Below are positions 17,288 to 51,940 of a DNA stretch of 64,000 bases, piece by piece. The DNA lies in contig JAFREE010000067.1 in assembly GCA_019400425.1 (NCBI GenBank), positions 60,163 through 124,162 on the forward strand. Reading direction: 5' to 3'. Every line of letters starts with the position of its first letter. Positions within the stretch are counted from its first letter, which is position 1. The stretch comes from Hymenochaete sp. R1. Lineage: Eukaryota > Basidiomycota > Agaricomycetes > Hymenochaetales > Hymenochaetaceae. The notes beneath the pieces were generated by a model. It was not told the DNA's origin, made no database searches, and saw only the letters and a program-made list of their open reading frames with translations. Made by a program: the position numbers and the translations under genes.

Positions 17288-18820
17288 TCACTTCTGAGAT
17301 TTTTCTTGACTTCCTTGGTGAATATCAGTATCCCGGCTCTTCCTCTTCTTCGGGTTCACAATCGTGTCCCATCCCAGCCGAGTTCTATCATAGTTAGCGG
17401 TAAGATGAGCGCCTTTCTCAAAGTCAACATCCGTGAATACACGCTCGAGTCTTAACTCGGACTCCTTTCGTTTCTCATCATAGTACTTGGCCAAGATCTG
17501 GTCTGAGATACTATCAGAGTGCTGCCTACAGTCTATCGCGTGGAATTCCATGGTAATCAGTCGCCTGCTCACGTCTTTTGACTGTAAATTGACTCCAGGG
17601 GGGTGGCAGACGGCAAGCTGGTTGATTATGAACAGCTTCGTTTCGCAAATGCAAGCAGCTTTAATGTCTTCAGCCCAGTTATCATCGATATGTGGGCCAA
17701 CATATGTCGAACTGGAAGCCGATGATGTTATAAGCTGCTTAAGATTGTCGGTGAACTTCTCAATGTTCTTATTTCGGGGATTGAAAGGCGAAATTGATAC
17801 GCCAGGATAAGACGGTTCCTCGATTTCTGCCAGTTCACGATACTTGTCGCGCAAGATGTTTCCAAAATCATTGATTGCCTGTATCAACTTCTCCGCGGCC
17901 TCTGCAGCACCAGTCGGTAGGCTTGTTGGGACGAGGCCGAGAATGTGGTCAAGCATCCCAGGAAGAGCGTCGCGCTTTCCTTTTCCTTTCAAGGAAGCCG
18001 ATGCTTGTTCAGAATCCGCATCAATCAGACCGAGTTTCACCTTCTGCGGCGTGTCTATTGAGGCGTGGCTGCAGTTCTCGAAGTCGAGATCGCTAATGTG
18101 CTTGCTACAAGCCCGTTCTAGATATGCCAGCCCATTTAAATAGTATCTTGCCACATGCGTGTCGCGAGCAAGCTCAAGCAGCATATGTTGCACAGGTCTG
18201 GGACGTTTCTCTAGTTCTTCCTGGTATACGCTCGATCCAGCAATCTGAATCTCTCGTTTAATCTTTTCTCGATTCGGAAGGCTTCCCTTTAGAATATCAG
18301 CATGCTTCATGCACCAAGAGTCGAATGCCTTTTCGAATAGTGCACTAGCTTCCTGCTTGCAGGTTCTAGCATGGATCTCCATAGCTCCCATTAGACTCTT
18401 CTTCTGTGCCGCATCAGAATGGCTGCTTGTAGAGACCAAGTGTAAGCGTATGTGCGTGAGGTAAAATAGCCTAGTCTCACAGATTGAAGCAGCTTTGATG
18501 ATTTCCCTTCGCCATGCTGACAAGCCATGATCATGACCGAACATACGAGTAACAATCGTTTCCACCGAACGCTGCCGACCATCAATCAACTTGCGGTATT
18601 CGTCAAATCGGTCGTTTGGGGTTTCTTGCAAGGCTTTCTTCTTTTCGTTTAGTTGAGTCTCCAATTCTTCAAGCGCGCGGCTCAACATATGAGCATCACT
18701 CTTCAGCTGCTGTTTCGAGTCACTGAATGTTGGAACAATCTTCATACGGATGTAATCAAGCATGTTTTCATGCGGAGCAGGTGGATGAGAGTGGGTGAGA
18801 AAGATCTTGAGGTCGTCCAT
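17288..18820 (-). CDS. family-P orphan protein, two-unit member (copy 1)
   Basis: A single uninterrupted frame of 510 residues, with no intron. I do not recognise the family. The protein is a tandem of two related units. Unit A has a helical segment (about residues 44-66), then AASICETRLF (Cys114-Glu115), MEIHARTC (Glu148, His150, Cys154), SDLDFENCSH (residues 243-252) and KLGLID. Unit B repeats the order: KAACICETKLF (Cys392-Glu393), MEFHAIDC (Glu425, His427, Cys431), DVDFEKGAH (464-472), RLGW. Unit A carries about 58 extra residues between the His/Cys and Asp-Phe motifs. Each unit is followed by a basic patch (KGKGKRD near 278; KKRKSRD near 491) that could be a nuclear signal. There is no signal peptide or membrane segment. 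The same gene type recurs at 48050 and 50408, with a shorter form at 42580. Function unknown. Confidence 0.87.
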   Translation of the reverse strand: MDDLKIFLTHSHPPAPHENMLDYIRMKIVPTFSDSKQQLKSDAHMLSRALEELETQLNEKKKALQETPNDRFDEYRKLIDGRQRSVETIVTRMFGHDHGLSAWRREIIKAASICETRLFYLTHIRLHLVSTSSHSDAAQKKSLMGAMEIHARTCKQEASALFEKAFDSWCMKHADILKGSLPNREKIKREIQIAGSSVYQEELEKRPRPVQHMLLELARDTHVARYYLNGLAYLERACSKHISDLDFENCSHASIDTPQKVKLGLIDADSEQASASLKGKGKRDALPGMLDHILGLVPTSLPTGAAEAAEKLIQAINDFGNILRDKYRELAEIEEPSYPGVSISPFNPRNKNIEKFTDNLKQLITSSASSSTYVGPHIDDNWAEDIKAACICETKLFIINQLAVCHPPGVNLQSKDVSRRLITMEFHAIDCRQHSDSISDQILAKYYDEKRKESELRLERVFTDVDFEKGAHLTANYDRTRLGWDTIVNPKKRKSRDTDIHQGSQEKSQK

Positions 18821-18876
18821 AGTTGATCGGGGGACGCAAAAGTACTAGTGTGCCGCTCAGACGCCATCCATCTTTT

Positions 18877-19233
18877 TTATGCTAGAATGAAATCGTGCAA
18901 AGGGACCATGGACCGATTCGAACCTGGAAATGCCTTTTCTTTATCTTGCTCCATCCATATGCGACGAATGCATTGTAGACTAGCGATAGTGCGTGAGCAA
19001 TCTAGCTTTATTTAAAGAGAGAAAGGCTCACATTTGCACATCATTTCTTGGTGAAGCCATGCGTAGGAGTCGCTGGATTGCGGAGCTATGTTGCAGGCGA
19101 GAGTCATCCTCGAAAAGTTGAGATAGGACTGTGGAGTCGGCGCAGAGAAAACATTATAACAGAGCGTACGATGAGCACGAGACTCACAAAACTCCATTAG
19201 CCGTGTTGCGTTTGTGCAAAGCACGACGTCCAT
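18877..19233 (-). CDS. possible small unknown protein (81 residues, three exons)
   Basis: Candidate model: complement(join(18877..18979,19032..19128,19188..19233)). Starting at the ATG at 19233, two introns of 59 and 52 nt with GTGAGT/CACAG and GTGAGC/GCTAG ends join three short frames into 81 residues. The result begins MDVVLCTNATRLMEFFLSQL and ends LHDFILA. No family is recognised. Its stop lies only 56 nt before the start of the family-P gene on the same strand, so it could also be a remnant of a larger gene or a transcribed leader. The evidence is frame continuity across two good introns and nothing more. Confidence 0.4.
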
Positions 19234-19642
19234 GTTTCAAGCGATATGAATTAGCAGTAGCAAAGTTAGTTTGCATCCATATCTTGGAACCTGTCGTTCG
19301 ATAAGTACGTTTTATCGGCTACTCTTGCTCTAGGAGCATTTTTCACCATGATTAGTGAACCAACGTAGTCAATTGCGTCTTAGGCATGTTCATGAAATTA
19401 GTGTAAAATGGAGTCTCTGCTGTTACGGTGGCCCTGGTCGGGTCGGGTGAGACGTTTGAATCGACGTGACACGCAGGATCATCGGCAGCAAAAACAAGAA
19501 GGTCTCAGCACGTGATAATTTGAACTAGAAGTACTATACAGTATTACATAAAAGCCTCTACTCCTCCTTCCTAATCCGTCACTGCAAGTTGAGTCCATTG
19601 ACGGCCATACGTTCACAGCGACCACGCACCAACGAGCACACA
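19234..19642. other. divergent promoter region upstream of eL39
   Basis: About 400 bp between the small candidate gene (-) and RPL39 (+). It contains an E-box-like CACGTG near 19510 and otherwise nothing I can name. Confidence 0.5.
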
Positions 19643-20000
19643 ATGGTGAGCAAAACTGCTGCTCGACTCAATGTTATCTGTGCCAACTAGCTACTGTGTC
19701 TAGCCATCCCAAAAGACTTTCCGCACGAAGCGCATCCTCGCGAAAGCAGGCCGCCAGAACAGGTTTGTCGACTTCTTTCTGACAATGCACCTGCATCGAT
19801 TTTCATTCTTTGTCTTCCGTTAGGCCTATTCCCCAATGGTTCCGTCTGAAGACGGGCAACAAGATCCAGGTGTGCACCAAATTTGACCAGCTTGTACTCT
19901 CGAGAGCAAAAGTTAACGCAGCGTATCCTCTATCTCTTGTTGCGTCAACCAGTACAATGCTAAGCGCCGACACTGGAGACGCACGAAACTCAACATCTAA
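19643..20000 (+). CDS. RPL39: 60S ribosomal protein eL39
   Basis: Model: join(19643..19645,19704..19762,19824..19869,19953..20000), 51 residues, exactly the family length. The first exon is only the ATG, followed at once by a 58-nt intron, a layout common for eL39 in fungi. The protein starts MPSQKTFRTKRILAKAGRQN, continues PIPQWFRLKTGNKIQ and ends YNAKRRHWRRTKLNI, covering the whole conserved sequence. It lines the peptide exit tunnel of the large ribosomal subunit. The introns are 58, 61 and 83 nt. There is no ambiguity about the identity. Confidence 0.98.
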
Positions 20001-20848
20001 ACCGTGGCTTCGCCATCCGTTTTTGTCTCTTATACTGTCGCATATGTGGCATGTACGTCTGGCCCCCTCGTTCATGGCTGGATCTTTCACAAGAGTTGTA
20101 CTTTGTTGATATTCGATACTGCATGCTCCATCGCAATCATTTCATTTTGCTTCCAATTTGATCCTGATTCAACAGCTGCTCTCGTGATTTCAATAAGCGC
20201 CCGCGATAACTGGTCCACATGCTCAACATCATCGCCTTGAGTAAATTCATTCTCACGTTAAATGCCACTGTCTCACAATCAGCTGCGGAATCATCCAGAA
20301 TCATTTACGTTAATCCTATTTGATAAACACAATCACCCTTGTTGATTAGCGACTCGATTCTCCCCTGTTTCTCTGCGCCTTAAGCCGGCTCAGCGCATCA
20401 TCCTACTCGTTCGACTGATCTATTTTGAGTCTGGGTCAAAGTGCTCCATGGCATTGCTTTCGGAATTCCGACCACGATCATCTAGGAACGCAATCAAGAC
20501 TCATCAGTGCACTTACAATAGGTACGGTCGCGTGGCAGTTTCTCTTGTATTCGTCATATTACCTTTTGTAGGCAATCGGTTGCTCGCATCAAAAGAAGGC
20601 GGTCCTTCGGCTAGAAATCTGGTTTTCAAAAAACAGATACCGAGTCATGTCAAAAATGCTCGATTATGAATCCTTGGGTGTTTCTCTGGGGCAGTGTTTC
20701 TTAGGTTCCGGGGGCGCAATCATACTCAATACAGCCACGGAAGTATAAATATCAATCCTTGTTTCGCCATCCACACCAGCTATTCATCGTTTCTCTACTT
20801 GGAACCACCAGCTTCGCACCTATTTCTCAGTGAATCTCAGCTCTCGAG
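20001..20848. other. intergenic region after eL39
   Basis: This region holds the eL39 3' region and the promoter of the DUF6699 gene. Fungal ribosomal protein genes sometimes carry snoRNAs in introns or flanks, but I could not identify C/D or H/ACA boxes here with confidence. Confidence 0.5.
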
Positions 20849-22108
20849 ATGTCTGAGCCCGTCAGGGAGCGACGAGTACGTTGGGCCGAGCGACTCGCTA
20901 CATCGTACGACGATGAAACTGGCACATTCATCCCCCCCACACCCCTGCATACGCCAATCCTTCTGCCTGCCGATGATGTATCGTCTGTGGCAGATTCAGC
21001 GTCCCCCGCCACACCTGCAACGAACATCTCCTCTCTCGTCAGTGAACCTCGGGTCAGAGCGTCTCCGATTCCATTTTCGCCGCCTCATCGTGGCCGAGGC
21101 GAACCGCCTATCCGGAGCCCAGATAGGCGATCATGGACCCACGAGCAATCGTCGACTCGTCCTAATGCCCTTGGTATGTCGGGACTGCCTCAGAGCCTCT
21201 CACCTTTGAGTCCTCGAGGCCAAGCTCAACGCAGGCTATCAAATGCTTCTCATACGCGGAATCGCTCCGACCAGAGTGTTCAAAGTGACGTTTCGACGCT
21301 ACACTTCTTCCTCGCCAATTCGCATTCAACAAGATTGATCTGGAATGCTATCGATACGCCTTCGGACGACAGTGTTCATTTGCGTAATCCTGACCGGACG
21401 TTCTCTGCAGTCCCTCCAGAACAATTGCACGAGGCAGCAACGTTTCCGCCCACGCGGGAGATGCGAATCCACTGCTCACTTCACTCTAATTGGGAGCCAT
21501 TATCTATCACAGTCAGAGACCGCGACGTGGGGCAAGGTTCTGGATCTGGGACTTCAAGGTCTGGCGACTCTCCCCGTAGTGCCTCCTCTCGGAGCTCCAT
21601 TGATGGCCCGGATTACATTACAGTCCAAGACGTCATTATCGAAGTTTACAGATACCTTCGCCGCCGCATGACTCACGCCGAATACGATGCCCTCGCGAAC
21701 TTGCCTGTTCCGGGTATGAAGGATTCGGTGGCGCGTGCTTTCTACGACCGTTGCGAAGTGGAAGATAGAAGAGCTGCTACCGCCGCTGCAGCTGCGCGGA
21801 ACTCATCTCAAGTTCCGAATCCAGCGCTTGAGGCACGAGACACTGCGCGCGCTCATCATGCTTCTAGTCGACATCAACGACCTCGAAGCTCGTCAAACGT
21901 TTTCCAATTACCGGGGAGTTCTTCTTCCGCACCCTCAACGTCCGGATCCCCAACATCGTCCAGCGCCAATCTGGGACCGGCGTCGGCGAGAGATGGGGGG
22001 CTGAGGCGAGTCGATTGCCTGCTCGGTCAGACACAATTCATGAGCCTCGAGCTACTTTCCGTCGCATCTGGCGACTGGATCGTGCGCTTCGGCCCTCGCG
22101 GATCGTGA
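20849..22108 (+). CDS. DUF6699-type fungal protein
   Basis: One exon, 419 residues. The first 150 residues are Ser/Pro-rich and disordered. The middle (about 150-300) looks like the fungal DUF6699 domain: a hydrophobic start (LHFFLANSHSTRLIWNAID), a short segment after PTREMRIHCSLHSNWEPLSITV, then TVQDVIIEVYRYLRRRMTHAEYD. A Ser-rich loop separates the strands. After another disordered stretch the domain closes near the end with RRVDCLLGQTQFMSLELL. The domain is widespread and expanded in Agaricomycetes, and its function is not known. There is no signal peptide. It stands alone, with long intergenic gaps on both sides. Confidence 0.78.
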   Translation: MSEPVRERRVRWAERLATSYDDETGTFIPPTPLHTPILLPADDVSSVADSASPATPATNISSLVSEPRVRASPIPFSPPHRGRGEPPIRSPDRRSWTHEQSSTRPNALGMSGLPQSLSPLSPRGQAQRRLSNASHTRNRSDQSVQSDVSTLHFFLANSHSTRLIWNAIDTPSDDSVHLRNPDRTFSAVPPEQLHEAATFPPTREMRIHCSLHSNWEPLSITVRDRDVGQGSGSGTSRSGDSPRSASSRSSIDGPDYITVQDVIIEVYRYLRRRMTHAEYDALANLPVPGMKDSVARAFYDRCEVEDRRAATAAAAARNSSQVPNPALEARDTARAHHASSRHQRPRSSSNVFQLPGSSSSAPSTSGSPTSSSANLGPASARDGGLRRVDCLLGQTQFMSLELLSVASGDWIVRFGPRGS

Positions 22109-23505
22109 CAAGTCTCCGTCTAATTGTGAATCACTTCTTCGGAAACCTTCTCCCATATTTGCTTTGATGTGTAATTCTGTGTGCTTCTCCCTTCTCTTGA
22201 TATTCACTTCGTACCGTTCAGTTCCTCATTGAAAATGTTTATTCTTAACTTTCCGTTGTCTGCATCTGGATAGCTTGCTATACTGCTTTGATTTTTTTTG
22301 CTGATTGAGATCTTGTTAACACCCACGGAAACGTACCGCGCATACATTACTTGTAAATAAATTTTCTCGACTTGTCCTCACCTCCTTTTACGGCTCTGTC
22401 AGATTGTACGTAGAACCCTCTCTTGTGCCAGTGAAGAAAATGAAGCAAATTCAGACTTTTTTTTGACTTTCCGAAGCTTTTCAGTAGATTCCTGTGTAAT
22501 GTCAAGAGGCGCTCAGGTACGCGAGTTTCCAAATTGGGATGTGGCGGGTCCACACTGAAATCCTGTGTCAGCCAACGAGAGCTCTCAGCTCCCTCCGCCC
22601 AACACCGTCTCGGAAACTTTCGCTGCACTGGCTTAGCTGAGAAACTCGTGCCTTGGCGTCTGGAAGTCTAGTGGCTGCCTTCGCCATGGAAGCAACATAC
22701 TCAAAGACGATCGATCTGAAGATGTGGATTTCGATCTCAGGCTCACCATACTTGTTCTTCGTCAAAGGGAACCGCCTCGGATAATGTCTGTTATGTGACG
22801 GACAATACCTTTTTTCTAAGCGGCTACAAACATGCCTTTTCGTTTCGACAATGCGATGCGAATACACGCTCTGTATACCTCGCCCACTGCGACTCCACGA
22901 GCCTCCCTTTGTCGCGCGCGGGATGCGCCTCGTGCGTACGAGAGCCTTCCTAAAGTCCTTTATTCTCCAACATGCACAATGCGATTATCTGAAAAGATTT
23001 CTTGTATGGACAGCACTTAACAATGGCAGCTACTCTGGAATCTATTATCGTGCAAAAGATACACGCGGTATGAGCTTTCTGTCCGAAAAGCAAGACATTA
23101 CCCTTTGGAACCTCTGGTATACTTTCGTTCTATTGAGCGGCTCGCCATAATGCATCTTCTCTTTGTAAACCATTGCCTTTAGCCTTTCAAGCATTCATGT
23201 AGCTTTGTCGAACGTCGTCTCATTGTAAGAGAATGCTCGAACCATTGCTGTAGCCACTTCAAAGTCGATACTTCGACATATAAAACTTGTTCTAGAATGG
23301 CTCTGGTTCAGCATCCTCTTAGATTTCCTCTTGTCTACCCCTGCAGTCGCTGTGCGACCCACTAAGTCTTCTACTCTATTATCCTTATTGCCCTCAACTT
23401 CTTCGAAAACTCTGCGAGTTCAACACTTCACGCTCCTTCAAGTTCCTATTATCTCTAAGTTCAAACGTTTTCCTATCTACTTTACAATCCACCTGCATAT
23501 ACGAC
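22109..23505. other. intergenic region, no supported gene
   Basis: 1.4 kb between two plus-strand genes. Frames at 22568-22867 (-) and 22851-23150 (+) lack splice or family support. The last 200 bases before 23506 are CT-rich, as expected of a leader. Confidence 0.5.
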
Positions 23506-27833: not shown

Positions 27834-27857
27834 AGCTTATCTACTCTTCATAACCAG

Positions 27858-28113: not shown

Positions 28114-28194
28114 CCTACTATCTAAATTTAGTTTTCATGTAAGTAATGATAATAGCACCATTTGCGGCTCATACAGTTGAAGGAAACAGAATCT

Positions 28195-28500
28195 TATCGT
28201 AGTTCGCTGGAATCATCGAAAAGAGAGCTTGGTAGACGAAGAAGTGGTCAAACTTGGTTCCGCTGACGCTTTCACGATCCTTCACGGGAGCGAGCAGCGG
28301 CTATTTCCAATACAGAACCATATACTGAATTGTGAGGATGCGTATGTTTCCCAAAAGGTCATGTTACGGACCAGAACCGATTCTGCATTTATCGTTATGG
28401 GGGAGGGAATCAAAAGACATTCAAAATGGCCAAAGTAAAGGATGGTTGTGGTGAGGTCGTTTTTGATGTGGACAAGGGTCGAGGGGGCGTTGATTCTTGA
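28195..28500 (+). pseudogene. decayed C-terminal fragment of a BTB gene
   Basis: The fragment aligns with the C-terminal third of the three intact BTB genes downstream. It reads EQRLFPIQNHILNCEDAY in one frame, then switches frame near 28355 and continues as DQNRFCIYRYG and KDGCGEVVFDVD. These match the intact EQRMIQLQNHILFCDEVY, SQNRFCGYCWVKD and DGCEKVAFDVD. The N-terminal BTB part and the introns are absent. At least one frameshift and the missing 5' two thirds make it a pseudogene. It marks the upstream edge of the tandem array. Confidence 0.8.
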
Positions 28501-28955: not shown

Positions 28956-29797
28956 ATGGCCCCTCAACTTCAAGGTGAACTCCTTGTTACTGAAGATCAA
29001 GATCATTTTATATGCCCCATAGTCTTCCAGGTATGTTTATGCGCCGAGAATCATTTTCGTGATCGTATGGTCGCATTGACGCGTCAGTAGGTCGAAAATG
29101 TACTATTCAAAGTCGACCGCAAGCCATTTGAGACGGAATCGATCGTATTTCGGGATATGTTTTGTCTCCCTAACTCAAATGAGGGTTCCGACAAGACCAA
29201 TCCTTTGCTGCTCCAAGGCATTACAGCGAATGACTTCAGGGCGTTCCTTAAGGTATTGAGAACACCGTAAGTGATAAAAATTGATTTGAAACATATTTAT
29301 ACATGCTGAAAGCGATAGTCAGACTTTATGAAGACTTGACAATGTCGGACCAGGAGTTAGAGGCGGCGCTACATCTTGCTCATATGTGGGAGTTTGTCGA
29401 TGCTGGGCGATTGGCGGCAAAGAAACTGGACCAAATCGGAATAGACCCTGTGCGCAAAATCAGCCTGGCGCGAAAATACGGGATGGGGGACTGGCTGCGT
29501 CCATGTATTGACCAGTTAGTCTATCGAGAGGAAGTGTTGACAGGCGACGAGGCCAGGATCTTGGGCTTGGACGATGCTCTGATGGTTCTTCGTCTCCGCG
29601 AGCAGAGGATGATTCAACTCCAAAATCACATTCTATTTTGCGACGAAGTTTATGAGTGCCCGAATGGGAGGCATCTGACGAGCCAGAATCGATTCTGCGG
29701 TTACTGTTGGGTCAAGGACAGGGTTCGGCACGATGCGACGTTCCAGATGGCTGCTGTAGTTGATGGATGCGAGAGGTTAGAGTACGACCTTGATTAG
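28956..29797 (+). CDS. BTB/POZ-like protein, tandem copy 1
   Basis: Model: join(28956..29030,29091..29266,29323..29797), 241 residues. A BTB-type start follows the first intron (ENVLFKVDRKPFETESIVF, then FRDMFCLP), then a strand-turn (PLLLQGITANDFRAFLKVL) and the helical half (ALHLAHMWEFVDAGRLAAKKL). Next comes the signature of Agaricomycete BTB proteins, KISLARKYGMGDWLRPC. The last 60 residues hold CDEVYECPNG and QNRFCGYCW, a Cys-containing tail that could bind a metal. Intron phases (0, then 2) and sizes (60, 56 nt) match those of the next copy. The likely role is protein-protein interaction, perhaps as a cullin-3 adaptor; this is inferred from the fold only. Confidence 0.86.
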
Positions 29798-30441
29798 AGT
29801 CCTTTACATCTTTGCATGCTGCGTGAAATGCTTTTGACAGTTCGTTACCTTGTAACACTTAAGATTGCGAGAAACGATCGTAAAACACTTTAACAGAGCA
29901 GCACCCGCAGTGCAACATTAATGTCAAAGACAAAGACGGACGGAAGAGTTGATCGACTCGTTGAGCTTGCAAGTCATGTGAATCACTTGCTATTTTTGGT
30001 TGTTGCGCGAGACAGTATCGCCGCCGACGACGACGCAACGACCCAACTACTACTACTCACCGTCAACCTTGATGACCTCCTCGAATTCAAAATGAGCCAA
30101 ATATAACGAAAACTCTCTTCAAAAAGGAAAAAGGGAACAATTTACATCAGTGTTGTTTATCAGAGATCAGCTCTTCTACAAACCGGATCATTGATCAGTT
30201 TTCTCATAGCGCCCGCATCTCTCTGAAAAAAGCAACAGTTATGCTCTACCAGTACTCGTACAGATCATGACTCATGGCATGTTGAAACCGTGGAAAGTAA
30301 AGCCAATAAAAGGCAACAGTACCGGTTTTCCTTTTTCAGAGTATAAGAAGGGTTCGAAAGTGCGTTGAAACTTCCCCAACTCCATCACTACTAGTCGTAC
30401 AACATCGACAAGCGCACCCCCTTGCGCGCTCCTCGCTGTCT
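29798..30441. other. spacer between BTB copies 1 and 2, with duplicated 3' flank
   Basis: Bases about 29,945-30,015 resemble bases about 31,405-31,480 behind the second copy; both contain a stretch like AATNACTTGCTATNTTTGG. The duplication unit therefore extended past the stop codon. No gene is seen in the spacer itself. Confidence 0.6.
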
Positions 30442-31293
30442 ATGACCTCTCCGCTTCAAGGCCAACTCGATGTAGTGGAAGATGATATTCACTTCATACG
30501 GCCAATTATTTTTCAGGTACGTGTGCATCGGAAATCGTCTTTCACGTACTGATCCCGTCCTACGACTGGGATAATAGGTCGAAAACATTTTGTTTAAAGT
30601 CGACCGAAAACCATTTGAGACGGACTCAAAAATCTTCCGGGATATGTTCGATCTCCCTGTTTCGGCCGAAGGATCCGATGAGAGTGTCCCTCTCCTGCTG
30701 GAAGGCATTTCGGCAAAAGAGTTCAGAGCTTTTCTTACAGTACTGAGAGAGCCGTGAGTGATTTAAGAAGATTCATTGATTCACTTCGGTAGCTAATGGT
30801 ACGAGGCAGACTTTATAAAGGCATCCGAGTAGCGTTGTCGTTGCAAGAGTTCGAGGCGGCGTTGCATCTTGCCTGTATGTGGGAGTTCGAGGACGTGACG
30901 CAATTGGTGGTGGACGAGCTAGACAATAAAACCGAGTTGAGCTCTGCGCACAGAATCAGTCTGGCGCGCAAGTATGGCTTGACAGAGTGGCTCCGTCCGG
31001 GTATCGAAGATTTGGTTTATCGAGAGGAAACGTTGACAGATGACGAAGCCAGACTCTTGGGCCTGGACGATACTCTCAAGATCTTCCGGCTTCGCGAACA
31101 AAGGAGCACCCAGATTAAGGAACATATTTTAAATTGCGACCACGTCTACGAATGTTCGACTGGAGGCCATAACACGAGCCAGAATCGATTTTGCGGGTAT
31201 TGCTGGGTGAAAGACAAGGCTCGATACGAGTATACATTCAAAATGATTGCAGTGAGCGATGGTTGCGAGAAGGTTGCGTTTGATGTTGATTAA
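30442..31293 (+). CDS. BTB/POZ-like protein, tandem copy 2
   Basis: Model: join(30442..30516,30578..30753,30810..31293), 244 residues. It is the closest relative of copy 1. Exons 1 and 2 have the same lengths (75 and 176 nt), the introns have the same phases, and the motifs are shared: ENILFKVDRKPFETDS, FRDMFDLP, ALHLACMWEFEDVTQL, ISLARKYGLTEWLRPG, QNRFCGYCWVKDKARY. The Cys-containing tail is intact (CDHVYECSTG, FCGYC), as is the final block DGCEKVAFDVD. It has diverged enough from copy 1 at protein level to be an old duplicate rather than a recent one. Presumed role: BTB-mediated protein interaction. Partner unknown. Confidence 0.86.
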
Positions 31294-31660
31294 CTTCTTG
31301 TTTGTATCTGTATGATGTGCTTGTTTGATGGCCCAATCTCTTATTATACAGAAATTTGCGCAAGACAAAGATCGTAAAAGACTGAAAGAAATCGAAATCG
31401 AAAGGGCGGTTGATGCTTAGAGAGCCGAAAATGCTTGGGCCTGCGAATTACTTGCTATATTTGGCAGTGATGCGAGCCGACAGCTGCAACGACATCCCCG
31501 ATGTTCCCGTTCTTCAACTTCAAGCAGGCCGGAAGTCTCTCCCAAGTCCCACATTCACGTACACCACCTATCATTTTGAGGGTGTGAGTATGTCCTATTG
31601 ATACTTGTTGTATATTTCTAATTCTTTTGGTCCTTTTATTTCCTTGTTAAAGATTGAATT
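31294..31660. other. spacer between BTB copies 2 and 3
   Basis: It carries the homologous 3' flank described for the previous spacer and the promoter of copy 3. Nothing else is seen. Confidence 0.55.
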
Positions 31661-32473
31661 ATGGTGACCGCTGGCAAACGACCTAGGGAAGAATCGGTAA
31701 AGCTCGAAGAGCCCGTGAAGAGGGCCAAACTGTACAGAGATGATGAATTCTCTATCTCAATGCTGTTTGTGCAGGTATGCCTTCCATCATATCCTGATTT
31801 TGAGTATATGGGCGGGCAATGATGTGCAGAGTTTTTTTTAGGTCGCAGACACTCTGTTCGAAGTGGATCGCATGTTGTTCCAGAAAGAGTCCAAGTTTTT
31901 TGAAACGATACTCTCTCAGTCTTCACCCCCGCATACTTCATGCAATGGCTCGAAGGAGGAAAACCCCTTACTTCTTGAAGGCGTTACGGTTGATGAGTTT
32001 AGAACCTTCTTGAGGTTCTTACAAAAGCGGTAAATGGTATTCTCTTCTGAATAATGATCATGCTCTGACATCCAATTTAATTGTCTAAAAGGGCTTTCTC
32101 AACGGATCTCTCAATGGAGACCAAGGAACTTTTGACGCTATTGAGATTGTCATACATGTGGGAGTTTGAGGATGCGCGCCAGTTCGTCATTGGGAAATTA
32201 GACCAGATGACCCGTGGACCAGAACACGATGCCTGGAAAATTCAGATGTCACGAAAGTACGACATTCCAAACTGGTATCGGGTGTCCGCTCGGAGCTTGG
32301 TCGATCGAGCGGACTTCATAACAGACGAAGAACTACAATTACTTGGGAAGGATGCTCTCCCGATTCTGAAAGCGCGGGACAGAAAAGACCACAGGATTGA
32401 AAGAAGAATGCCATGGCGAGCAGCTAAGGCGCCAGCGCGACCACTAGATCTCTTCGACTTTTATTCCCCCTAA
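31661..32473 (+). CDS. BTB/POZ-like protein, tandem copy 3 (diverged, without the Cys tail)
   Basis: Model: join(31661..31774,31842..32029,32092..32473), 227 residues. Same exon layout and intron phases as copies 1 and 2, but more diverged. The N-terminus is longer and basic (KRPREESVKLEEPVKRAK). The BTB start is ADTLFEVDRMLFQKESKFF and the helical half is LLRLSYMWEFEDARQF. The repeat motif reads KIQMSRKYDIPNWYRV. The C-terminal Cys-containing segment (CDEVYEC and FCGYC in the others) is replaced by a short basic and Pro-rich end, RRMPWRAAKAPARPLD. It has thus lost the putative metal-binding tail, or the other copies gained it. Confidence 0.84.
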
Positions 32474-32819: not shown

Positions 32820-34561
32820 ATGTCTCAGCAATCAACCATATCCAAGCCGTCGCTCTCAGGCGTGAAGATTAAGACAAGAAAACGGACTGCACAAGCCCAA
32901 GCTAAACACGAACCTGCCGGTAAGTTGACGTTTTCCACAGACACAGCACCGACATTCATTGATGTACAATCTCTGATGATTTCGTTACAGTCTTCAGAGA
33001 CCAGCTCTATAAACATCTAGAGACCGTTCCAGAGGGAGACTTTGACGGATACTACAACAAACTTGTGCAAGCTGGATCCACACTCGAATTTCTCAAGTAT
33101 GCCGAAGCCTTCTACGAGATTTTCTTCGCTGGAGGTCTCCTCCAACCGGGAGGAAGCTACGTCCAGGATAACGCTCCTTCGTCTCCGTTCTCTGTACTTA
33201 AGGCCAAATCGCCGCCCGAGGTGGAGGACATGAAGAAATACGTGGACGTTCTTAACAAGCTTACTAGAAGGTATGTATTATTCAGACGTAGTTACGGTTG
33301 TTTGGTACACATATACTAATGAAGATGTCTGCGGCTGTAGGTACAAGTACCTCCAGAGACCGCTTGAGCAAACTTCTTTGCCTGGCTTGATCCAGTACAT
33401 GAACCGATGGCCGGCTGATCAGAGAGACAAGTTCTCTCTCGCATGCGGTTTGATCATGGCCCAACAGCTCTCCACAACCGCGCCGTTGCTTACCCTTACA
33501 AAGGATCACCTCGTCAAGGATAGTGAGTTATTCTTTCAAGATTCGTTAGTTGATTTTATGTAATGCCATCGCAGATCTTGCGTTGGAGCTCATCACGGTC
33601 ATTTTCCGCGCCTATTTGGCCGAACAGACGATGGACAACCTGAGCAGCAATCTGCGCAAACATGGCATCAAGGACCTTCTGCTTTTCCTTCCTGGAAACA
33701 GACGTGACCCAAAGATTTTGGAGGATCATTTCAAGAAAGCAGGATTGCCGCAGGTAGCGGACTGGTTCATGCGCAAGCAGAACGCTGCTGCAAAGGATAG
33801 TGTAGTGAAAACGATGAAAGAGCTCTTCGCAGACGAAGAGCGTACGACAGACGAGGTGTGTCTATATTGCTTATTGCGACGATATTAGCTTTTTAACGGT
33901 CGTGTTATCTTTCAGATGATCGAATCTCTTAAAACCACGATGGATGATATGCAGATGCCTCCAGCTGACTTCGTCGGCTGCATCTGGCAAGGCTGCATGG
34001 CCCAGGTCGACTGGAACTCCCGCGCCGATCAGCTCGAAGCCAACATTATCCGCGATGTCACTGTAAAAAAATTAATTCCATCGATAAGACCCGGTATCTC
34101 TGACCCATGTGTTCTTTGGCTACAAATAGAAATATGCGCCGGTTTTGGAGCCGTTCTGCGATAACGCGAAGACGCAAGTGGCGTTAATCAATGCCGTACA
34201 GGTGTATTGTTATGATGAAGCGCGAGTAATGAAGGCGTTCACTCAGCTTCTCAAGGTACGGTGATTTCCGGTGTTTTATCTTACGTTGTCGATTATCAAA
34301 AGAGTGGACTGACGTGGTATGTGGATTTGCAGGTGTTGTATAATAAAGATTGTATTTCTGCCCAGGCCATTATTTATTGGCATCAGAAGGGCGCGAAGCC
34401 GCAAGGGAAGAACAACTTCCTCAAGGCCACTGAACCGCTTGTCAAGGTTTGTAAAATCTCTACCTGCCCCCTTTTTATCGCCGATTGTCATATAATGGAA
34501 TTACTGACCTTAATTCCAGTTCCTCGAAGAGCAGGAAGACGAGAGCGACGATGAAGAGTAG
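32820..34561 (+). CDS. BZW1: eIF5-mimic protein (BZW family)
   Basis: Model: join(32820..32919,32991..33270,33341..33522,33575..33855,33916..34062,34130..34255,34333..34446,34520..34561), 423 residues, as usual for the family. It starts MSQQSTISKPSLSGVKIKTR. The helical middle has FRDQLYKHLETVPEGDFDGY, LDYAE-type helices (LEFLKYAEAFYEIFFAGGLL) and LACGLIMAQQL. The C-terminal W2 domain contains YDEARVMKAFTQLLKVLYN, AIIYWHQKGAKPQG and the acidic end FLEEQEDESDDEE that binds eIF2-beta in eIF5. BZW proteins compete with eIF5 and tighten start-codon choice. Seven introns of 52-77 nt all join in frame. Identity is firm. Confidence 0.97.
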
Positions 34562-42579: not shown

Positions 42580-43422
42580 ATGGCCGATTACAATCGACGC
42601 AATCCCGACTTCCTCTCGAAGATCCTCAGTAACGACATCATACCCAACCCAGACAAGTTAACCGATGGCGATGCTCGTGACAAAGCTTCCAAGCTGAGGA
42701 ACGAGGTTACTGGACTCAAAGAGTCGCTCAATAAAACTGTTGAACGTCTGAATAGACATACTGACGACAACAACTTTTCGATTGCTCAAGCTCCACTTCA
42801 ACGCAGGCTACGCTCTATCGAAGACGCAATCAAGGACCTAAAAGGCGAATTGGAGTCATCAGACCAGACTCAAGGCATATCGAGCTGGGACTTCAGCGTC
42901 GTCGAGGCGGCAGCGACCTTCGAATACGAACTTTTCCGCTTCTTCCATGTAGCGCACTACTGTGCTCATCATCCCGAGGAGATCGAAGACCGGCAACAAG
43001 GTAGCCTGGAGTTTTACTCAAAGGTCTGCTCCAACCTAGAGTGCGCTCTTGCAGGGTCAGATGATTCTGGGTCCTTTGATTCTGGGACGAAAGGCTGGTC
43101 TGAATGGGAGGTGGTTCAGCATTATAAAAGCATACGCGAAAGGTTGGAGAACTGGATCAAAGATCAGCCAGGTATCGGACATAATATCGACTTTGAGAAT
43201 GGGACACATCTTAGTCGTACTCAAGTTGAGAACATCGAGCGGAAGAAGGGTGCAAAAAGTGCCGCCGAAGCTCTGCGCGAGGCCGGAGGCAGCCGCATGG
43301 CGACGCACGCCAGTGACCCGAAGGCTAAAGAAGATAAAACAAGCGGGACGGGGGCAAAGCGTAGTGATGGAAAGGACCACGGGCGAGCTGGCAAGAAGTC
43401 AGAATCTGTTCCCTTTTCGTGA
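42580..43422 (+). CDS. family-P orphan protein, single-unit diverged member (copy 2)
   Basis: One intronless frame, 280 residues from ATG 42580. It matches one unit of the larger family-P proteins. A helical region (LRNEVTGLKESLNKTVERLN) is followed by VEAAATFEYELF, where the others have Ala-Ala-Cys-x-Cys-Glu-x-x-Leu-Phe and the Cys is lost. Next come SLEFYSKVC (others MEFHAxxC; His replaced by Tyr, Cys kept), an HY-x-S-x-R-E-x-L-E-N block, and NIDFENGTH (others DFENCxH). A basic, disordered tail follows. The order of blocks is the same, so I place it in the family, although it is too diverged for certainty by eye. No signal peptide or membrane segment is present. Function unknown. Confidence 0.78.
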   Translation: MADYNRRNPDFLSKILSNDIIPNPDKLTDGDARDKASKLRNEVTGLKESLNKTVERLNRHTDDNNFSIAQAPLQRRLRSIEDAIKDLKGELESSDQTQGISSWDFSVVEAAATFEYELFRFFHVAHYCAHHPEEIEDRQQGSLEFYSKVCSNLECALAGSDDSGSFDSGTKGWSEWEVVQHYKSIRERLENWIKDQPGIGHNIDFENGTHLSRTQVENIERKKGAKSAAEALREAGGSRMATHASDPKAKEDKTSGTGAKRSDGKDHGRAGKKSESVPFS

Positions 43423-44945: not shown

Positions 44946-46567
44946 ATGCTGCAGAGGCCTTACAAACCGCTCAGTGAACGAATAAGGTGCGTCGGCACCA
45001 AACATGTAAAATTTCACGCGAAACTTATACCCACTTTGTGTAGACATTTTGTTCCAGCATGGTATGCAGTTATCATGGGTGAGCTGTTCTCCTAGTCGTC
45101 TCGAAATGGCTGCACTAAGTTCTTGGCTTAAAAGGTACTGGCGCGATCTCGTCGCTCTTTCATGTCTTCCCGTATGGCAGCAAGAGCAGAGGGATGCAAA
45201 TTGCTGCATTCTTCTTCCTATGCCTCAACGTTCTGTTTTTCATCCTCCTAACCTTATGTTCCGTCGCTCGGTATACCATCTACCGCGGGATATGGTCGAG
45301 CATGATCCACCACCCCGTCCAGAGCCTGTACCTGGGATGCTACCCCATGGGATTCGCAACAATCATCATGGCTGCCACAGGTGTGGTCTACAACTACTTT
45401 GGCTATGGGGGCGAGGCATTTCTGTACGCGCTGTGGGGTTTCTGGTGGTTGGATGTGGCTCTTGCATTGGTCACTTGCTTCGGGCAACTTCATGTCATGT
45501 TTGTCCTCGATTCATTTGCTTCCCGGGTTTTAGCCTTCTGACCTCTCGTTTCTAATAGGTTTACGAGGCAGAATCATGAAACAGCAGGAATGACAATGGT
45601 TTGGCTCCTTCCCATCGTTACGCTCATTGTCGCGTCTTCGTGCGGAGCCCTTGTTGCTCAGGAGCTCGCGTCAATCGACGTTTCTCGTACCGTCCTCACT
45701 CTCGCCGTTTGTATGGCACTCGTCACTATCGGCATCACACTCGCAATTGCCGTTTTCTCGATCTATCTCCATCGACTTATCGTGCATGGTCTTCCGGAAG
45801 GTATCACTATTTTCTCCGCCTTTCTTCCCTTGGGTCCTCTCGGACAATCGGGGTATGCATTTTTATTACTAGGCGAAATTTCGAGGGATTTGTTCCCTCT
45901 GAAAGGAGGAGATGCTGTGACAAACGTGTTTACGAACGAACTTGCTCCTCAAATACTTTACACGCTGGCATGGGTGATGGCCTTTGCTCTATGGAGTTTT
46001 GCGACATGTTGGCTCGCGTTAGGTGTCCTTGCTTTGGGAGACGTTCTTTCAAAAAACAGGTTCCCATTCAAGGTTACCTTCTGGGGCATGATTTTCCCCA
46101 ACGTGAGTTATTCTATACTTTATCTTCTCAGTATACTAACATCATGTATTGTGCCCTAGGGTGTCTACGCAAATCTTACAATCAACTTGGGTACCACAGT
46201 CGACTCACATATATTGAAAGTCTGGGGTTCGATCTACGCCGTCTTCACATTTTCCTTATGGCTCTTTGCGATGTACAACACACTCCCGAGTGCCTGGGAT
46301 GGCTCTATATTCGAGGCGCCTTGCCTGCTGAAATACGAGCCACCAAAACGGAAGGTTGAGAAGATAGAGGCGTGTGGTGCGTCGGCTGCAGCATCGGCTG
46401 CTCAAGGCTCGGTCTCACCTACTACGGGACTAAGCCGTAGGACAACACAGGAGGATCTGATTTCAGGTGGTCGAGAACGAGCAAGCATTTCGTCGGCCTT
46501 GGATGGAGCACCAGATAGCTTGGGCCATGAATTGCACATGATGCGTGGTTTACACAATGTACCATGA
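44946..46567 (+). CDS. SSU1: SSU1/TDT-family membrane exporter (sulfite or dicarboxylate)
   Basis: Model: join(44946..44986,45044..45078,45135..45498,45559..46102,46160..46567), 463 residues. It begins MLQRPYKPLSERIRHFVPAW, followed by the family signature YAVIMGTGAISSLFH. About ten hydrophobic helices follow, with HETAGMTMVWLLPIV in the fifth helix region, and VFTNELAPQI and KVTFWGMIFPNGVYANLTIN further on. This is the voltage-dependent anion channel/TDT fold (Mae1, Ssu1, TehA, SLAC1). In yeast Ssu1 exports sulfite at the plasma membrane, and Mae1 moves malate. The substrate here is not decided by sequence; Ssu1 is the closer match by eye. The cytoplasmic tail is Ser-rich and may be phosphorylated. 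Four introns of 56-60 nt. One donor is GTTTGT. Confidence 0.92.
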
Positions 46568-46825
46568 TCTTGATCCCTTGCAGGATCCATCGTTCAACAC
46601 GGTGTCACTGGGTGGTACGACCATCTATTCAAGCACGTATCACTCTTCGCAAGTCTTATTTCCTTGGTTTGAAGTCGTTATCACGGTAATCAGGCAATAT
46701 CATTTACATCATAATTGTACAGCTCGTTAATGAAGAAAGCCTGCTAATTAAGGTAATCAATGTCTCCGATAATAGACCGGCGCATCCATTGTGCGATTAG
46801 CAAATGTGCGCCCAGCGTCTAAATA

Positions 46826-47285
46826 CTACTGTTGTTGGGTGATATGGACGGACTGATCCGGCTCTGAAGGAAGCCCAGTCAGCGAGATGTATTGCGCTGC
46901 AAAGTGAAACAAGGGTCGGGAACGGAACGTACCGATGTACTTGATGACATCTCCCTGAAGACTCTTGAATGATTCGAGTGTCTTATCGGGAATCGTAGCG
47001 GAGAAACCGTTCAGGACAGGGTTGAAGAGCTGGCCTATTTCGCCACCTGTAAAGCTTGTCAGGACACCAAACTTTATGAAAAGGAAGAGCGAGAATGAAC
47101 GCACCATCTGCTTTGACTTCCGCGACATACTTGTTAAGCTGTTCAGAAGTAACTTCGTCATTGAAGACGACGATGTAACCTGTTGGAAGATGTGCATACA
47201 GTCAGCTATGCATACATTGTCTCGAAGTCATGCGAAGTAATCGACAAAAGAAAACGCTGGACTTTTACGCACCGTTTCCAGACAT
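46826..47285 (-). CDS. peptidase inhibitor I9 family protein (Pleurotus proteinase A inhibitor type)
   Basis: Model: complement(join(46826..46863,46933..47046,47105..47179,47273..47285)), 79 residues, close to the 76-77 of Pleurotus POIA1 and yeast Pbi2. After a five-residue start, MSGNG, it reads YIVVFNDEVTSEQLNKYVAE, then FNPVLNGFSATIPDKTLESF, LQGDVIKYIEPD and the C-terminal SVHITQQQ. The fold is that of a subtilisin propeptide. The C-terminal tail is expected to occupy the protease active site, inhibiting vacuolar proteinase B-type enzymes. No signal peptide, so it is cytosolic or vacuolar. Three introns (58-93 nt) and a 13-nt first exon; the frame is kept throughout. It faces the SSU1-like gene tail to tail. 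Confidence 0.93.
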
Positions 47286-48049
47286 ACTGTTTCGAAGACT
47301 TGGGCAAGAATAAAGTCTACGTAGTCGATGTGACGGTCGAGATGGTGGTTTGAAAGCAAGAATGGAGTGACTGCGCCTGAGACCTGAGAGCGGGCAGCAT
47401 AAGCAGGGGCTCGGGCTGCGTCGCCGATGATGATGACGTTATTCTGATCGACATGATGTGAGATCTTATTATGGAAGGCTACTCTCGTTCGATGTTGGAA
47501 CTCAGCTGCTGCCTCGTTTTTAGATTTCACCTTCACCTTAAGCTTGGACGTCGCTCACTCGCAGGGACAAGTTGGTGACTTTTGCATAGGTTTCATCGGA
47601 TCGATTCTGAGAGCGAGGTTTCAACAACTGCCAAAAGTTCGTTTGCAAAGTGACGTGGTCTGGCATTCGGTGTACGAACGGGGTACAAAAAAAAGTTACG
47701 TTGCTCTCCTTTGCAGAGGTGGCTATCTCTGAGGTATGGACTGGTTCGCTGCTTATCAGGCTACCCGTGCACGGGCTAAAATGCCCGTGAAATAATCAGA
47801 CTCTTTCGATACATCCATTGATGCGAATTGGCTTAGGAGGATTTTATAGAAGTATCAAGAACAAGTAGACGTTAACGGCGAGCAAAATGGGACTTCCGTC
47901 CCTTTTGGAAATCCTCATGGGCAATAGAAAACATTTCAGATCCCAATCCAGCATTTTTGCACTTTGTACCTCGTAAGTCTGCTATAAGATAAGAAGATAT
48001 CATTTACTACGCTACGCTAATCGTCCCTGCCCCCTTCTTCTCGCCTGTC
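47286..48049. other. divergent promoters of the I9 inhibitor and family-P copy 3
   Basis: The minus-strand frame at 47286-47530 is open but has no ATG in a useful place and reads into the inhibitor start in another frame. I take it as leader sequence. Nothing else is seen. Confidence 0.5.
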
Positions 48050-49639
48050 ATGGACGGTCCTGCCCGATTCTTATCCGACTCTTGCCCTCCTCGACCATTC
48101 CAGCATATTCTTGAATATGTCGAAGGGGACTTAGCACAGGATCCACTCCACTCAAGCGACAGCAGGAGTAATGACGCAGTAAGGCTCAGATGGGCAATTT
48201 CGTCGTTGCGCTCTGAGATAGCCAAGAAGACGGAACTCTTGCAGCAGAGTCCAGTTTCCAATTTCAACAATATGCGTGGTACGATCATGGGTCAGGAACG
48301 ATCAATCCAACTCAGCGTAGACCGACTGCTCGAACGAGGCTTTCTCCTATCTACGGGCGCGGTCGTCAAGACTGCTGCCGCGTGCGAGGCTAGGCTTTTT
48401 TGTCTCCTGCATTTATACCTCTATTTCGACTCGGAAGTTGGTCGCTCCGAGATGGCGGAGAAGAAGGAAAAGGCCAATAAAGAATGGAAGAAACGTTTGG
48501 GAAGCATGGAGACCCATGCCATGCACTGTCGACTACAGACTGATAGACTACTTGAAGACGCGTTAAGCTCCTGGCGCTTGCAGTATGGCGCTAACGAAGG
48601 GTTGCCAATTGATGACAAGACGAAAGAAAGAATCCAGGAACAGGTCTGGACTGCTAATTCGGAAGACTTTCTGAAGAGCATGTCAAGCAGCTCCGAAACA
48701 GTACGCATCGCGATGCTTGAGCTCTCTCTCGATACGCAGGTGGCGAGGTACTATACAAGAGCCCGTCTTGATCTTGAACAACGTTGCCGTGATCTTATAA
48801 TCGAACTCGACTTCGAGAACTGTGGCCACGCGGCCCTTCAACAGAAGATAGAACTCGGTTTGATCGGCGTCGACTCTGAAGAAGCAAGGTCTCGCCGAAA
48901 GGGTAAAGGTAAACGCGATGACCAGGAAGGAGAGCCGTCTGATTCGTTTGAATTCCTGGAAACACCTTTGCTCAAGCACGTCTATGGCCTCGTTCCATCG
49001 GGATTGTCAGAAGAAGCTGAAATCGCTACCAGAGACTTGAAGAAAGCGATAGTCAATCTCGGAAAGGCTTTGGGCGACAAGAGGAAGGAATTGAACGATC
49101 GCAAGGACTCGCCTAACGATAACTTCAGTTTATTCAGTACTGCAATTGCGAATCGAAATAGAACTGTCAAACAGCGAGTTGAAGAGCTCCGAAACACTAT
49201 GCAGACTGACGACGCCTGGGCTAAAGATATCGAAGCCGCTTGTATGTGCGAATACAAGCTCTTCGTCCTCTCCTATTACGACACCTACTACAGTTCTAGT
49301 ATTGGGCAAGCATTCATCAAGGACGGGATGAAGTCAGAGGAGAAGAGAACACGGCTGGGTAGCATGGAGTTCCATGCGATGGTCTGCAGGCAGGCTTCTG
49401 AGCGTATACCCAGCAGTGCGCTGGCTGAGCACTACCGAACGGAACGAGAGAACTTACAACAGAATATACATAATGCTTTCCCGATGATTGATTTCAAAGA
49501 ATGTTGTCATATCGATAGGCAGCAAAGGATCGACTTGGGCTGGATCAAGCCTGATGCTGATTCTATCTCCGATAGCCGGAAAGTAAAGGGTAAGAGGAAG
49601 AGAGGTGATCTTGAAGGAGAGACTGCGCGTCGTACTTAA
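48050..49639 (+). CDS. family-P orphan protein, two-unit member (copy 3)
   Basis: One uninterrupted frame, 529 residues, no intron. Two units. Unit A: TAAACEARLF (Cys112-Glu113), GSMETHAMHC (Glu154, His156, Cys160), ELDFENCGH (252-260), ELGLIGVDSEEA, then the basic block RRKGKGKRD (282-290). Unit B repeats the same order: EAACMCEYKLF (Cys400-Glu401), GSMEFHAMVC (Glu440, His442, Cys446), MIDFKECCH (479-487), DLGWIKPDADS, and again a basic block KVKGKRKRGD (511-520). The duplication thus covers the whole unit including its basic tail. There is no signal peptide or membrane helix. The basic blocks may be nuclear signals (inference). It is 768 bp upstream of copy 4, same strand. Function unknown. 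Confidence 0.87.
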   Translation: MDGPARFLSDSCPPRPFQHILEYVEGDLAQDPLHSSDSRSNDAVRLRWAISSLRSEIAKKTELLQQSPVSNFNNMRGTIMGQERSIQLSVDRLLERGFLLSTGAVVKTAAACEARLFCLLHLYLYFDSEVGRSEMAEKKEKANKEWKKRLGSMETHAMHCRLQTDRLLEDALSSWRLQYGANEGLPIDDKTKERIQEQVWTANSEDFLKSMSSSSETVRIAMLELSLDTQVARYYTRARLDLEQRCRDLIIELDFENCGHAALQQKIELGLIGVDSEEARSRRKGKGKRDDQEGEPSDSFEFLETPLLKHVYGLVPSGLSEEAEIATRDLKKAIVNLGKALGDKRKELNDRKDSPNDNFSLFSTAIANRNRTVKQRVEELRNTMQTDDAWAKDIEAACMCEYKLFVLSYYDTYYSSSIGQAFIKDGMKSEEKRTRLGSMEFHAMVCRQASERIPSSALAEHYRTERENLQQNIHNAFPMIDFKECCHIDRQQRIDLGWIKPDADSISDSRKVKGKRKRGDLEGETARRT

Positions 49640-50407
49640 AGTAAGCCTCACGATATGAAAACAATCACGAACCGAAGCAAAATGCAGCGGAATGCCAGTG
49701 GAAGTACACGTCCGGACTATCTTATTCAGAATTTCAGATCTTTCCCCTTTTACATTCAACAATGGGATTTGATGTTATTATACAAGTTAAACATACTTAG
49801 CGTAATGGATTCATTAGAAAAAAACCATGCTGGGTAAAGACCAGTTCCGCGTGCGGCCTTTCCTTCGTGAAGTTTGTTGAATCAGTAAGTGCAGCGGCAA
49901 CTTTAACTTCGACCACGACCACACGCGCACTTCCCACTTGCATGATTCCGTGGTCCATACAGTTGCACGCCGTTCGGTCCTTCACGACTCTGCCTGACTG
50001 CTCTTGACATGGGTTGAGTTGTGATCATATGATATCGAAGGAGCACTTCCCTTGTGTTAGGCCAACTAGGACTTACTGCAGCGAAAGTATCCTTACTCGC
50101 GTTGGATAACTTGGATTGGGTTAGGCTCAGCAACTCAAAGTCACAAGTGTAATTTGACCAAGAGCTAGAATTGTAGTAAAATATTTAACAAATGTGATCC
50201 AATTCTTTTATTTGGATACTAAGTACGTGGATTGCTCATGCATGTGATCTAGTTTACTTTGCACCCGCCACATAACAATAGCGCGGGAACCAGAGTTCAG
50301 TATCCGCAATGCGGACTCTTTGCATTTCTCAGGTCACAGAAAAGAGACGGGTGTGTAGTTTTTGGCACTCTTTATAGTGTGACAATCTCTCACCCCATTG
50401 ATCGGTC
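49640..50407. other. spacer between family-P copies 3 and 4
   Basis: This spacer carries the 3' end of copy 3 and the promoter of copy 4. Short frames at 49797-49985 and 49903-50133 (-) are unsupported. The last bases before the start, GATCGGTCATGGA, resemble those before copy 1 (GATCAACTATGGA). Confidence 0.5.
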
Positions 50408-51940
50408 ATGGATGTCCCAAGTCCCAGCCTCCCTCCTATTCTTACCTTTCCTTCCGATAAGTATATGCTCGACTTCATCATTGAAAACATCATCTCAAAG
50501 AACAATAAATACGATCATCAGACGAGGGTGCCAGTGGATGTTACTCAGCTAAGTCATGCGGTCGAAGAACTGAAGTCTCAGCTAGTCGAGAAGAGGAAGA
50601 TCTTGGAGGAGGGACCGACATTTCCAATCGATGAGCACCGCAGTGTTATCGATGGCCGCCAAGTGACAGTGTCGAGAGTTATCAGTCGCATGCTCGATAA
50701 TAAATCCATCTTGACAGAGCTTGATGGCGAAGTCATTGAGGCTGCTTCAGCTTGCGAAGTTAGGCTCTTCTACCTCAAAAACCTGTTCCAGTACCTCAGC
50801 TCTACGAAAGGTCGCTCTGACGCAGTGAAGAGGGTCAGCTGCATGGGAGAAATGGAGATCCATGCCATGATCTGCAAACAAAAGTCCGATGGATTATTCG
50901 AACAAGCATACAGCTCCTGGTGTGAACACTACCGCGCAGAACTCGTGAAATCGTCCTGGAAGACAGAAATAAAGGCGCAGATCTGGTACGCGGAGTCCCA
51001 GGGCTTCCAGAAACGATTAGAGAAAGCCGAGCCAGGAGTTCATAAAGCGATCCTTGAGCTTGTTCATGACACGCATGTGGCACGATACTACACGAAGGCT
51101 CGCGAAGACCTCGAGCAACAATGCCGCAAACTCATTAGTGAGCTTGACTTTGACGCCTATGTCCACGCTACTATGGAAAAGAAGATAAAGCTCGGTATCA
51201 TCGATGTGGACTCTGAAGAAGCACGAGCTCACCGGAAGGAAAAGGCAAGAGAGCTCCCAGGCATGCTGGGATATATCTGCGGCCTCATTCCAAAAGGACT
51301 ACCGAAAAATGCGGATGAGGTCGCTGACCGATTGATCAAGGCGCTAGTCGACTTCGGGAAGTTCTTAGAAGACGCGAGGAGTGACATGAAGGACCCTAGA
51401 AGGCGATCGAATCGACATCTCGGCTCGTTGGCACCAAAGCAAAATCAAGACAACATCACTATGAAATGTATCGACGAGCTTCGACAAGTCTTGTCTACAT
51501 CAGGTTCCGAGTCTCCCAGCCAGCATAATGACGACAGCTGGGCTGAAGTCATGAAAGCGGCTGTAGCCTCCGAATCGAGACTCTCGCTTTTATCGTACAT
51601 ACACGCTTGCTACTCCCCTGACGCAGGTAAGGAACATTTGGAGATGACGATTGACAGATCCGATAGGAGGTCCAAGCTATCCACAATGGAATACCATGCA
51701 ATGCTCTGCAAGCAAGAGACGGAGGGCATGTCCGACCACGTTCTGGCTGAGCATTACAGGAAAGAACGAGAGAATCTGGAGCATCAGTTGGGCAATCTGT
51801 CAGTCTTCAAAGAAGTCGACTTCGAGAACTGCTCTCACGTTCGGAGAGACAACCAAAGGGATCATTTGGGCTTGGGTAAGCTAGAGAAGGGAGGAGGATC
51901 GTCTGGGAGAAAGAGGAAGATAGATAACATAGTTTCATAG
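50408..51940 (+). CDS. family-P orphan protein, two-unit member (copy 4)
   Basis: One intronless frame, 510 residues, the same length as copy 1. Unit A: EAASACEVRLF (Cys116-Glu117), EMEIHAMIC (Glu150, His152, Cys156), SELDFDAYVH, KLGIIDVDSEEA. Unit B: KAAVASESRLS (Cys replaced by Ser, Phe by Ser), TMEYHAMLC, EVDFENCSH, then HLGLGKLEKG and a basic end SGRKRKID. Each unit therefore departs at a different motif: unit A lacks Cys in the last block and unit B lacks Cys in the first. The shared block HDTHVARYYTKAREDLEQQC is close to the equivalent in copies 1 and 3. No targeting signal except the basic end. Function unknown. Confidence 0.87.
   Translation: MDVPSPSLPPILTFPSDKYMLDFIIENIISKNNKYDHQTRVPVDVTQLSHAVEELKSQLVEKRKILEEGPTFPIDEHRSVIDGRQVTVSRVISRMLDNKSILTELDGEVIEAASACEVRLFYLKNLFQYLSSTKGRSDAVKRVSCMGEMEIHAMICKQKSDGLFEQAYSSWCEHYRAELVKSSWKTEIKAQIWYAESQGFQKRLEKAEPGVHKAILELVHDTHVARYYTKAREDLEQQCRKLISELDFDAYVHATMEKKIKLGIIDVDSEEARAHRKEKARELPGMLGYICGLIPKGLPKNADEVADRLIKALVDFGKFLEDARSDMKDPRRRSNRHLGSLAPKQNQDNITMKCIDELRQVLSTSGSESPSQHNDDSWAEVMKAAVASESRLSLLSYIHACYSPDAGKEHLEMTIDRSDRRSKLSTMEYHAMLCKQETEGMSDHVLAEHYRKERENLEHQLGNLSVFKEVDFENCSHVRRDNQRDHLGLGKLEKGGGSSGRKRKIDNIVS

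Follow-up and report, generated by a model that had tools for sequence, protein, structure and literature searches.

A scattered family of unnamed, internally duplicated proteins encoded by uninterrupted frames in Hymenochaete sp. R1

The 14-3-3 proteins have a nine-helix fold that carries basic phosphopeptide-binding residues, and they are one of the described groups with which the proteins considered here are compared. We analysed a stretch of 64,000 nucleotides from the fungus Hymenochaete sp. R1, positions 60163-124162 of contig JAFREE010000067.1 (contig C301 below; the whole stretch is referred to as the window), taken from an assembly of 27.8 Mb in 336 contigs. In this genome ordinary 14-3-3 matches lie on two other contigs. 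The window holds four genes of a different family, family P, which an earlier note on this DNA had described as an unnamed and locally expanded group of paralogues. We find that family P is a scattered set of about 15 genes, unnamed, internally duplicated and constrained on average.

The four open reading frames that the earlier note had proposed as paralogues are present where it placed them, are open and can be aligned reciprocally. Together with the repeated units that they encode (N, N-terminal; C, C-terminal), they are:

17288-18820, minus strand: family P gene 1, 510 amino acids, one uninterrupted frame, two units
18020-18808, minus strand: gene 1 N unit, long form, keeps a helix pair ending in ARYY
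17354-18028, minus strand: gene 1 C unit, short form
42580-43422, plus strand: family P gene 2, 280 amino acids, uninterrupted frame, a single divergent unit
42601-43254, plus strand: gene 2 unit, 218 amino acids
48050-49639, plus strand: family P gene 3, 529 amino acids, one uninterrupted frame, two units
48062-48874, plus strand: gene 3 N unit, long form
48866-49561, plus strand: gene 3 C unit, short form
50408-51940, plus strand: family P gene 4, 510 amino acids, one uninterrupted frame, two units
50420-51211, plus strand: gene 4 N unit, long form
51203-51889, plus strand: gene 4 C unit, short form, Cys of the Cys-Glu (CE) pair replaced by Ser

The three large window proteins (genes 1, 3 and 4) are 32-40% identical in pairwise alignments of 469-536 columns, with blastp E-values of 2e-80 to 4e-107 (all blastp values for the window proteins were computed in a four-protein database). 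The gene 2 protein matches that of gene 3 at E 3e-8 to 4e-7, that of gene 4 at E 1e-4 to 2e-4 and that of gene 1 at E 0.013-0.025, and in phmmer all six comparisons with the large proteins gave E 6e-9 to 4e-6; judged from these alignments, the 280-amino-acid product is a distant member of the family. The ordered motifs by which the four proteins had been recognised are real, but they had been worded too exactly, as each is literal in only part of the set: AACxCExxLF in two of the four proteins, MExHAxxC in three (twice in each), DFENCxH in three and LGLID in one. Gene 2 has relaxed forms only (AAATFEYEL, LEFYSKVC and DFENGTH) and lacks LGLID; the Cys of its CE pair has become Phe and the His of its ExH motif Tyr. 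In relaxed form the motif set occurs twice in each large protein, because each is an internal duplication.

Two tandem units are found in 14 of the 15 members of the family and one in gene 2. As cut, the units are 225-289 amino acids long in the large proteins and 218 in gene 2, and a profile of C units matched a profile of N units (11 sequences each) with a probability of 99.8 and E 4.5e-29 over 243 columns. The large proteins are thus tandem duplications of one all-helical unit. The structure predicted for one member's unit is a compact helical domain (predicted local distance difference score, pLDDT, 93.8; predicted template modelling score, pTM, 0.90), so that an all-helical unit is a high-confidence prediction. 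In a tree of units all 14 N units grouped together (support 1.000); the C units of the window trio (genes 1, 3 and 4) formed a separate group, whose partner was placed without good support. A helix pair ending in ARHY or ARYY, recognised by eye in the alignment, belongs to the N unit in the trio but to the C unit in the other 11 large proteins, and is lacking in gene 2; the order of units is long-short in the trio and short-long in the other 11. The simplest reading is that the helix pair would have been lost from opposite units in the two clades.

We used 29 units, with a mean column identity of 26%, to define the columns that form the signature of the family. Glu108, Glu141 and His247 are present in all 29 units, Asp241, Phe242 and Leu33 in 28, Cys107 in 27, His143, Ala104 and Pro19 in 26, and Trp96 and Tyr220 in 25. 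The Cys-Glu pair and Glu-x-His lie on successive helices, and Asp-Phe-x4-His in the closing loop. Because the acids and histidines are conserved in both units, the signature points to a polar core, which may be functional or structural.

A census of the same genome with seven protein queries gave at least 15 members on five contigs: four on C54, two on C156, three on C267, one on C335 and five on C301, the last being the four window genes and one gene at 17 kb of the contig, outside the window. No single query recovers all of the members, and counts obtained in this way for large families are lower bounds; gene 2 was recovered by three of the seven queries, in two of them at E 0.024 and 0.012. 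The 11 members outside the window have open frames of 559-660 amino acids from the first Met, or of 559-628 once three of the starts are shifted to a later Met. In all 15 members the frame is uninterrupted (i.e. unbroken over the alignment, as judged from the genomic sequence), and nearby genes carry introns. A crude pattern for intron-like sequence matched 3 times in 25,071 nucleotides of family coding sequence, with 2 antisense matches, and 12 times in 23,972 nucleotides from nine gene regions nearby, again with 2 antisense; three of the nine regions had no match. We also observed a C-unit match of 147 residues with six in-frame stops at C301:25595-26044, outside the window (E 0.054, and E 0.045 with a second query), which may be a sixteenth, decayed copy.

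In a tree of the 14 large proteins the window trio formed one clade (support 100/100) opposite the other 11. Two pairs of adjacent genes on C54 were sisters (100/98 and 96/94) and the C156 pair were weak sisters (84/67); the three C267 genes did not group, nor did the 17-kb gene of C301 fall with the trio. Contig labels changed six times on this tree versus a mean of 8.5 after shuffling, with an equally low number in 2 of 200 shuffles. Tree and label clustering together therefore indicate local duplication plus dispersal. This is not one local burst, because the trio is a single clade and the 11 other large members lie elsewhere. The local expansion described in the earlier note accordingly holds as duplication with strong divergence (identity to a reference member is 21-44% among the 14 large proteins) but not as a purely local process, since 11 of the 15 members are outside the window and 10 are on four other contigs. 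The four paralogues that the earlier note counted in 35 kb are indeed there but make up 4 of the 15 members, which shows that a cluster observed locally can be part of a dispersed gene family.

That the family evolves under changing selection, as had also been proposed, or under diversifying selection is not borne out. Among the 14 of 105 pairs listed, the five closest have ratios of nonsynonymous to synonymous divergence (dN/dS) of 0.27-0.37, e.g. 0.36/1.16 and 0.46/1.23; these values come from simple counting, with dS above 1 throughout and not computable in 2 of the 14 pairs. For the two listed pairs of the window trio dS was 3.74 or not computable, i.e. at or near saturation. The ratios in the five closest pairs therefore leave rapid or changing selection unsupported. 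In the protein database one relative was found, a 331-amino-acid protein from another sequenced sample that corresponds to residues 180-510 of gene 4 and is identical at 327 of 331 positions; its own start residue accounts for one of the four differences. We infer that its source is another isolate or a closely related organism. The duplications are old, and the proteins are on average under constraint; as these are averages, single sites may still be under selection.

The family also remains without a name. None of the 15 members had a Pfam-A match above its curated cut-off, the best being Mrr_N in one member (18.1 bits versus 29.5), and none showed a strong match to a known domain family. 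When the 29 units were searched at E 10, 40 families appeared; among the 25 listed, each was found in one unit only, with a best E of 0.00054. The best NCBIfam match of 14 members was E 0.0019, in one member. Comparison of the 14-member profile with solved structures gave nothing significant (the top hit, a designed helical peptide, reached E 0.038), a profile of the four window proteins gave one match, at E 0.26, and a Foldseek comparison of the unit model with solved structures gave no significant match. In the protein database, gene 4 retrieved only its 331-amino-acid relative among 7992 candidates scored. The 14-sequence alignment retrieved nothing, and as it missed even this relative of an included member the search was insensitive; a search with the region of another member gave 59 candidates, none matching, and did not return the query itself. 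Absence from the protein database is therefore weak evidence. Family P was named in no title or abstract opening among the papers listed, and five motif strings gave nothing.

The explanation that we prefer, with a probability of roughly 0.3, is that family P proteins work inside the cell, probably in the nucleus, as two-domain helical adaptors or regulators, or as ligand binders, and have a basic tail. Every unit would accommodate a ligand or partner; the invariant Glu/Glu/His and near-invariant Asp would either make up the binding site or close the fold, in which case a metal ion might sit at the centre. The basic end would serve nuclear import or nucleic-acid contact. Tandem duplication would have been followed by a division of labour between the units, which the opposite long/short order in the two clades makes probable. 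The sole pointer to the nucleus is the basic C-terminal end: the isoelectric point of the last 80 residues is at least 8.7 in 14 of 15 members (whole proteins, 5.8-8.7), and the import-type motif K[KR]x[KR] occurs there in nine of 15 versus a shuffled mean of 1.6 and maximum of 6 (2000 rounds), with 13 occurrences in these ends versus 10 in the remainder of the 15 proteins. As to secretion, inspection by eye, with no signal-peptide program run, showed no hydrophobic stretch at the N-termini used, but in two members on C54 an upstream Met would add a partly hydrophobic extension. A Gly/Ser-rich tail (12-35% Gly/Ser, no control) was dropped as a feature. Several points weigh against this explanation: the import-type motif is absent from the last 80 residues of six of 15 members and occurs elsewhere in eight of 15, cytosolic proteins also have basic ends, and no adaptor family was backed by any fold match. 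More generally, family P could, tentatively, represent an undescribed helical domain with a Glu/Glu/His and Asp core, arranged in tandem pairs, encoded by lineage-restricted intronless genes and having a new fold and a ligand or metal site. Many expanded fungal families lack annotation; the structural model, internal duplication and polar signature make this one experimentally approachable.

The same polar signature could belong to a metalloprotein or enzyme, in which Cys107/Glu108, Glu141/His143 and Asp241/His247 would form a metal or catalytic site, with two sites per chain. That six of the eight most conserved columns are polar in both units (H247, E141, E108, D241, C107 and H143) speaks for such a role, but 2 of the 29 units lack Cys107 and 3 lack His143 while the others are kept, no enzyme family was above cut-off or significant, and the residues may instead form a structural hydrogen-bond network; we consider this reading doubtful. 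The earlier note had suggested changing selection of the kind seen in recognition, conflict or regulatory proteins; on such a reading, family P would serve in allorecognition or genome conflict and be under diversifying selection. The tandem pairs, the strong divergence from the reference member (21-44% identity), the lack of a known family and the possible decayed copy with its weak matches (E 0.045 and 0.054) would fit this suggestion. It is nevertheless unlikely in view of the dN/dS of the five closest pairs, the open frames of all 15 members and the near-identical gene 4 copy in another sample, and no HET, NACHT or NB-ARC domain was listed by Pfam at E 0.1 in any of the 15.

The lack of introns could also mean that the genes spread through RNA or an element, i.e. 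that family P is a domesticated retrocopy or mobile-element protein, as the contrast between 15 uninterrupted frames and split neighbours (the kinase and 5MP genes below) and the spread of clusters over five contigs would allow. An intronless ancestral gene accounts for the frames equally well, however, and several members stand in tandem as unequal crossing-over would leave them. Pfam listed no transposase, integrase or reverse transcriptase at E 0.1 in the 15 members, two NCBIfam mobile-element rows scored far below their cut-offs (14.1 and 12.9 bits versus 200 and 160), and none of the pattern matches in prokaryote contigs (5) or viral contigs (19 and 92) was confirmed as a relative, so we regard this origin as improbable. 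We give a similarly small chance to a remote branch of the 14-3-3 or TPR-like helical superhelices, acting as peptide-binding adaptors: the all-helical unit would suit it, but PF00244 was not listed by Pfam at E 0.1 or better in any of the 15 members, and profile comparison of 14-3-3 with family P gave probabilities of 0.3-0.6%, at which the residue alignment is unreliable.

The genes around the family P members in the window include:

20834-22108: DUF6699 (PF20415) protein, Pfam E 1.7e-20
25.5-27.8 kb: methionyl-tRNA ligase, a name given mostly by eye (20.8 bits in Pfam versus a cut-off of 23.5)
28181-28500: possible partial BTB-like copy
29031-32473, plus strand: three adjacent BTB-like split genes, with the BTB-like exon first and the helical exon second in each
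32963-33888, plus strand: 5MP1/2-type HEAT protein, split gene, matched by Pfam in two frames (E 5e-33 and 6e-20)
52.5-54.8 kb: protein kinase, split gene, Pfam matches in two separate frames

The kinase and 5MP genes each match in two separate frames and are therefore split. Pfam also identified protein kinases (two in all), an NKAP C-terminal domain and a SLAC1-type transporter in the window. Against PF00651 the three BTB-like exons score 14.0-14.5 bits, under the cut-off of 20.5; a PF00651 search of the genome gave eight matches, none on C301. The three helical exons had no Pfam match at E 0.01, and one of them had 26 matches in the genome on 11 contigs, itself included. Beside the C54 cluster, a minus-strand open reading frame at about 3899-4330 of C54:26037-31000 resembles by eye the end of a gamma-glutamyltransferase.

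Like family P, the BTB-like group at 29.0-32.5 kb reflects local gene duplication inside the window, but its genes are split by introns, its sequence is by eye unrelated and its BTB name is weak. DUF6699 is, like family P, an uncharacterised protein of the same fungus, but has a Pfam model, which family P lacks. The 14-3-3 proteins show no significant sequence or Foldseek match with family P, whose units, unlike 14-3-3, end in a DFxxxxH loop and mostly occur in tandem.
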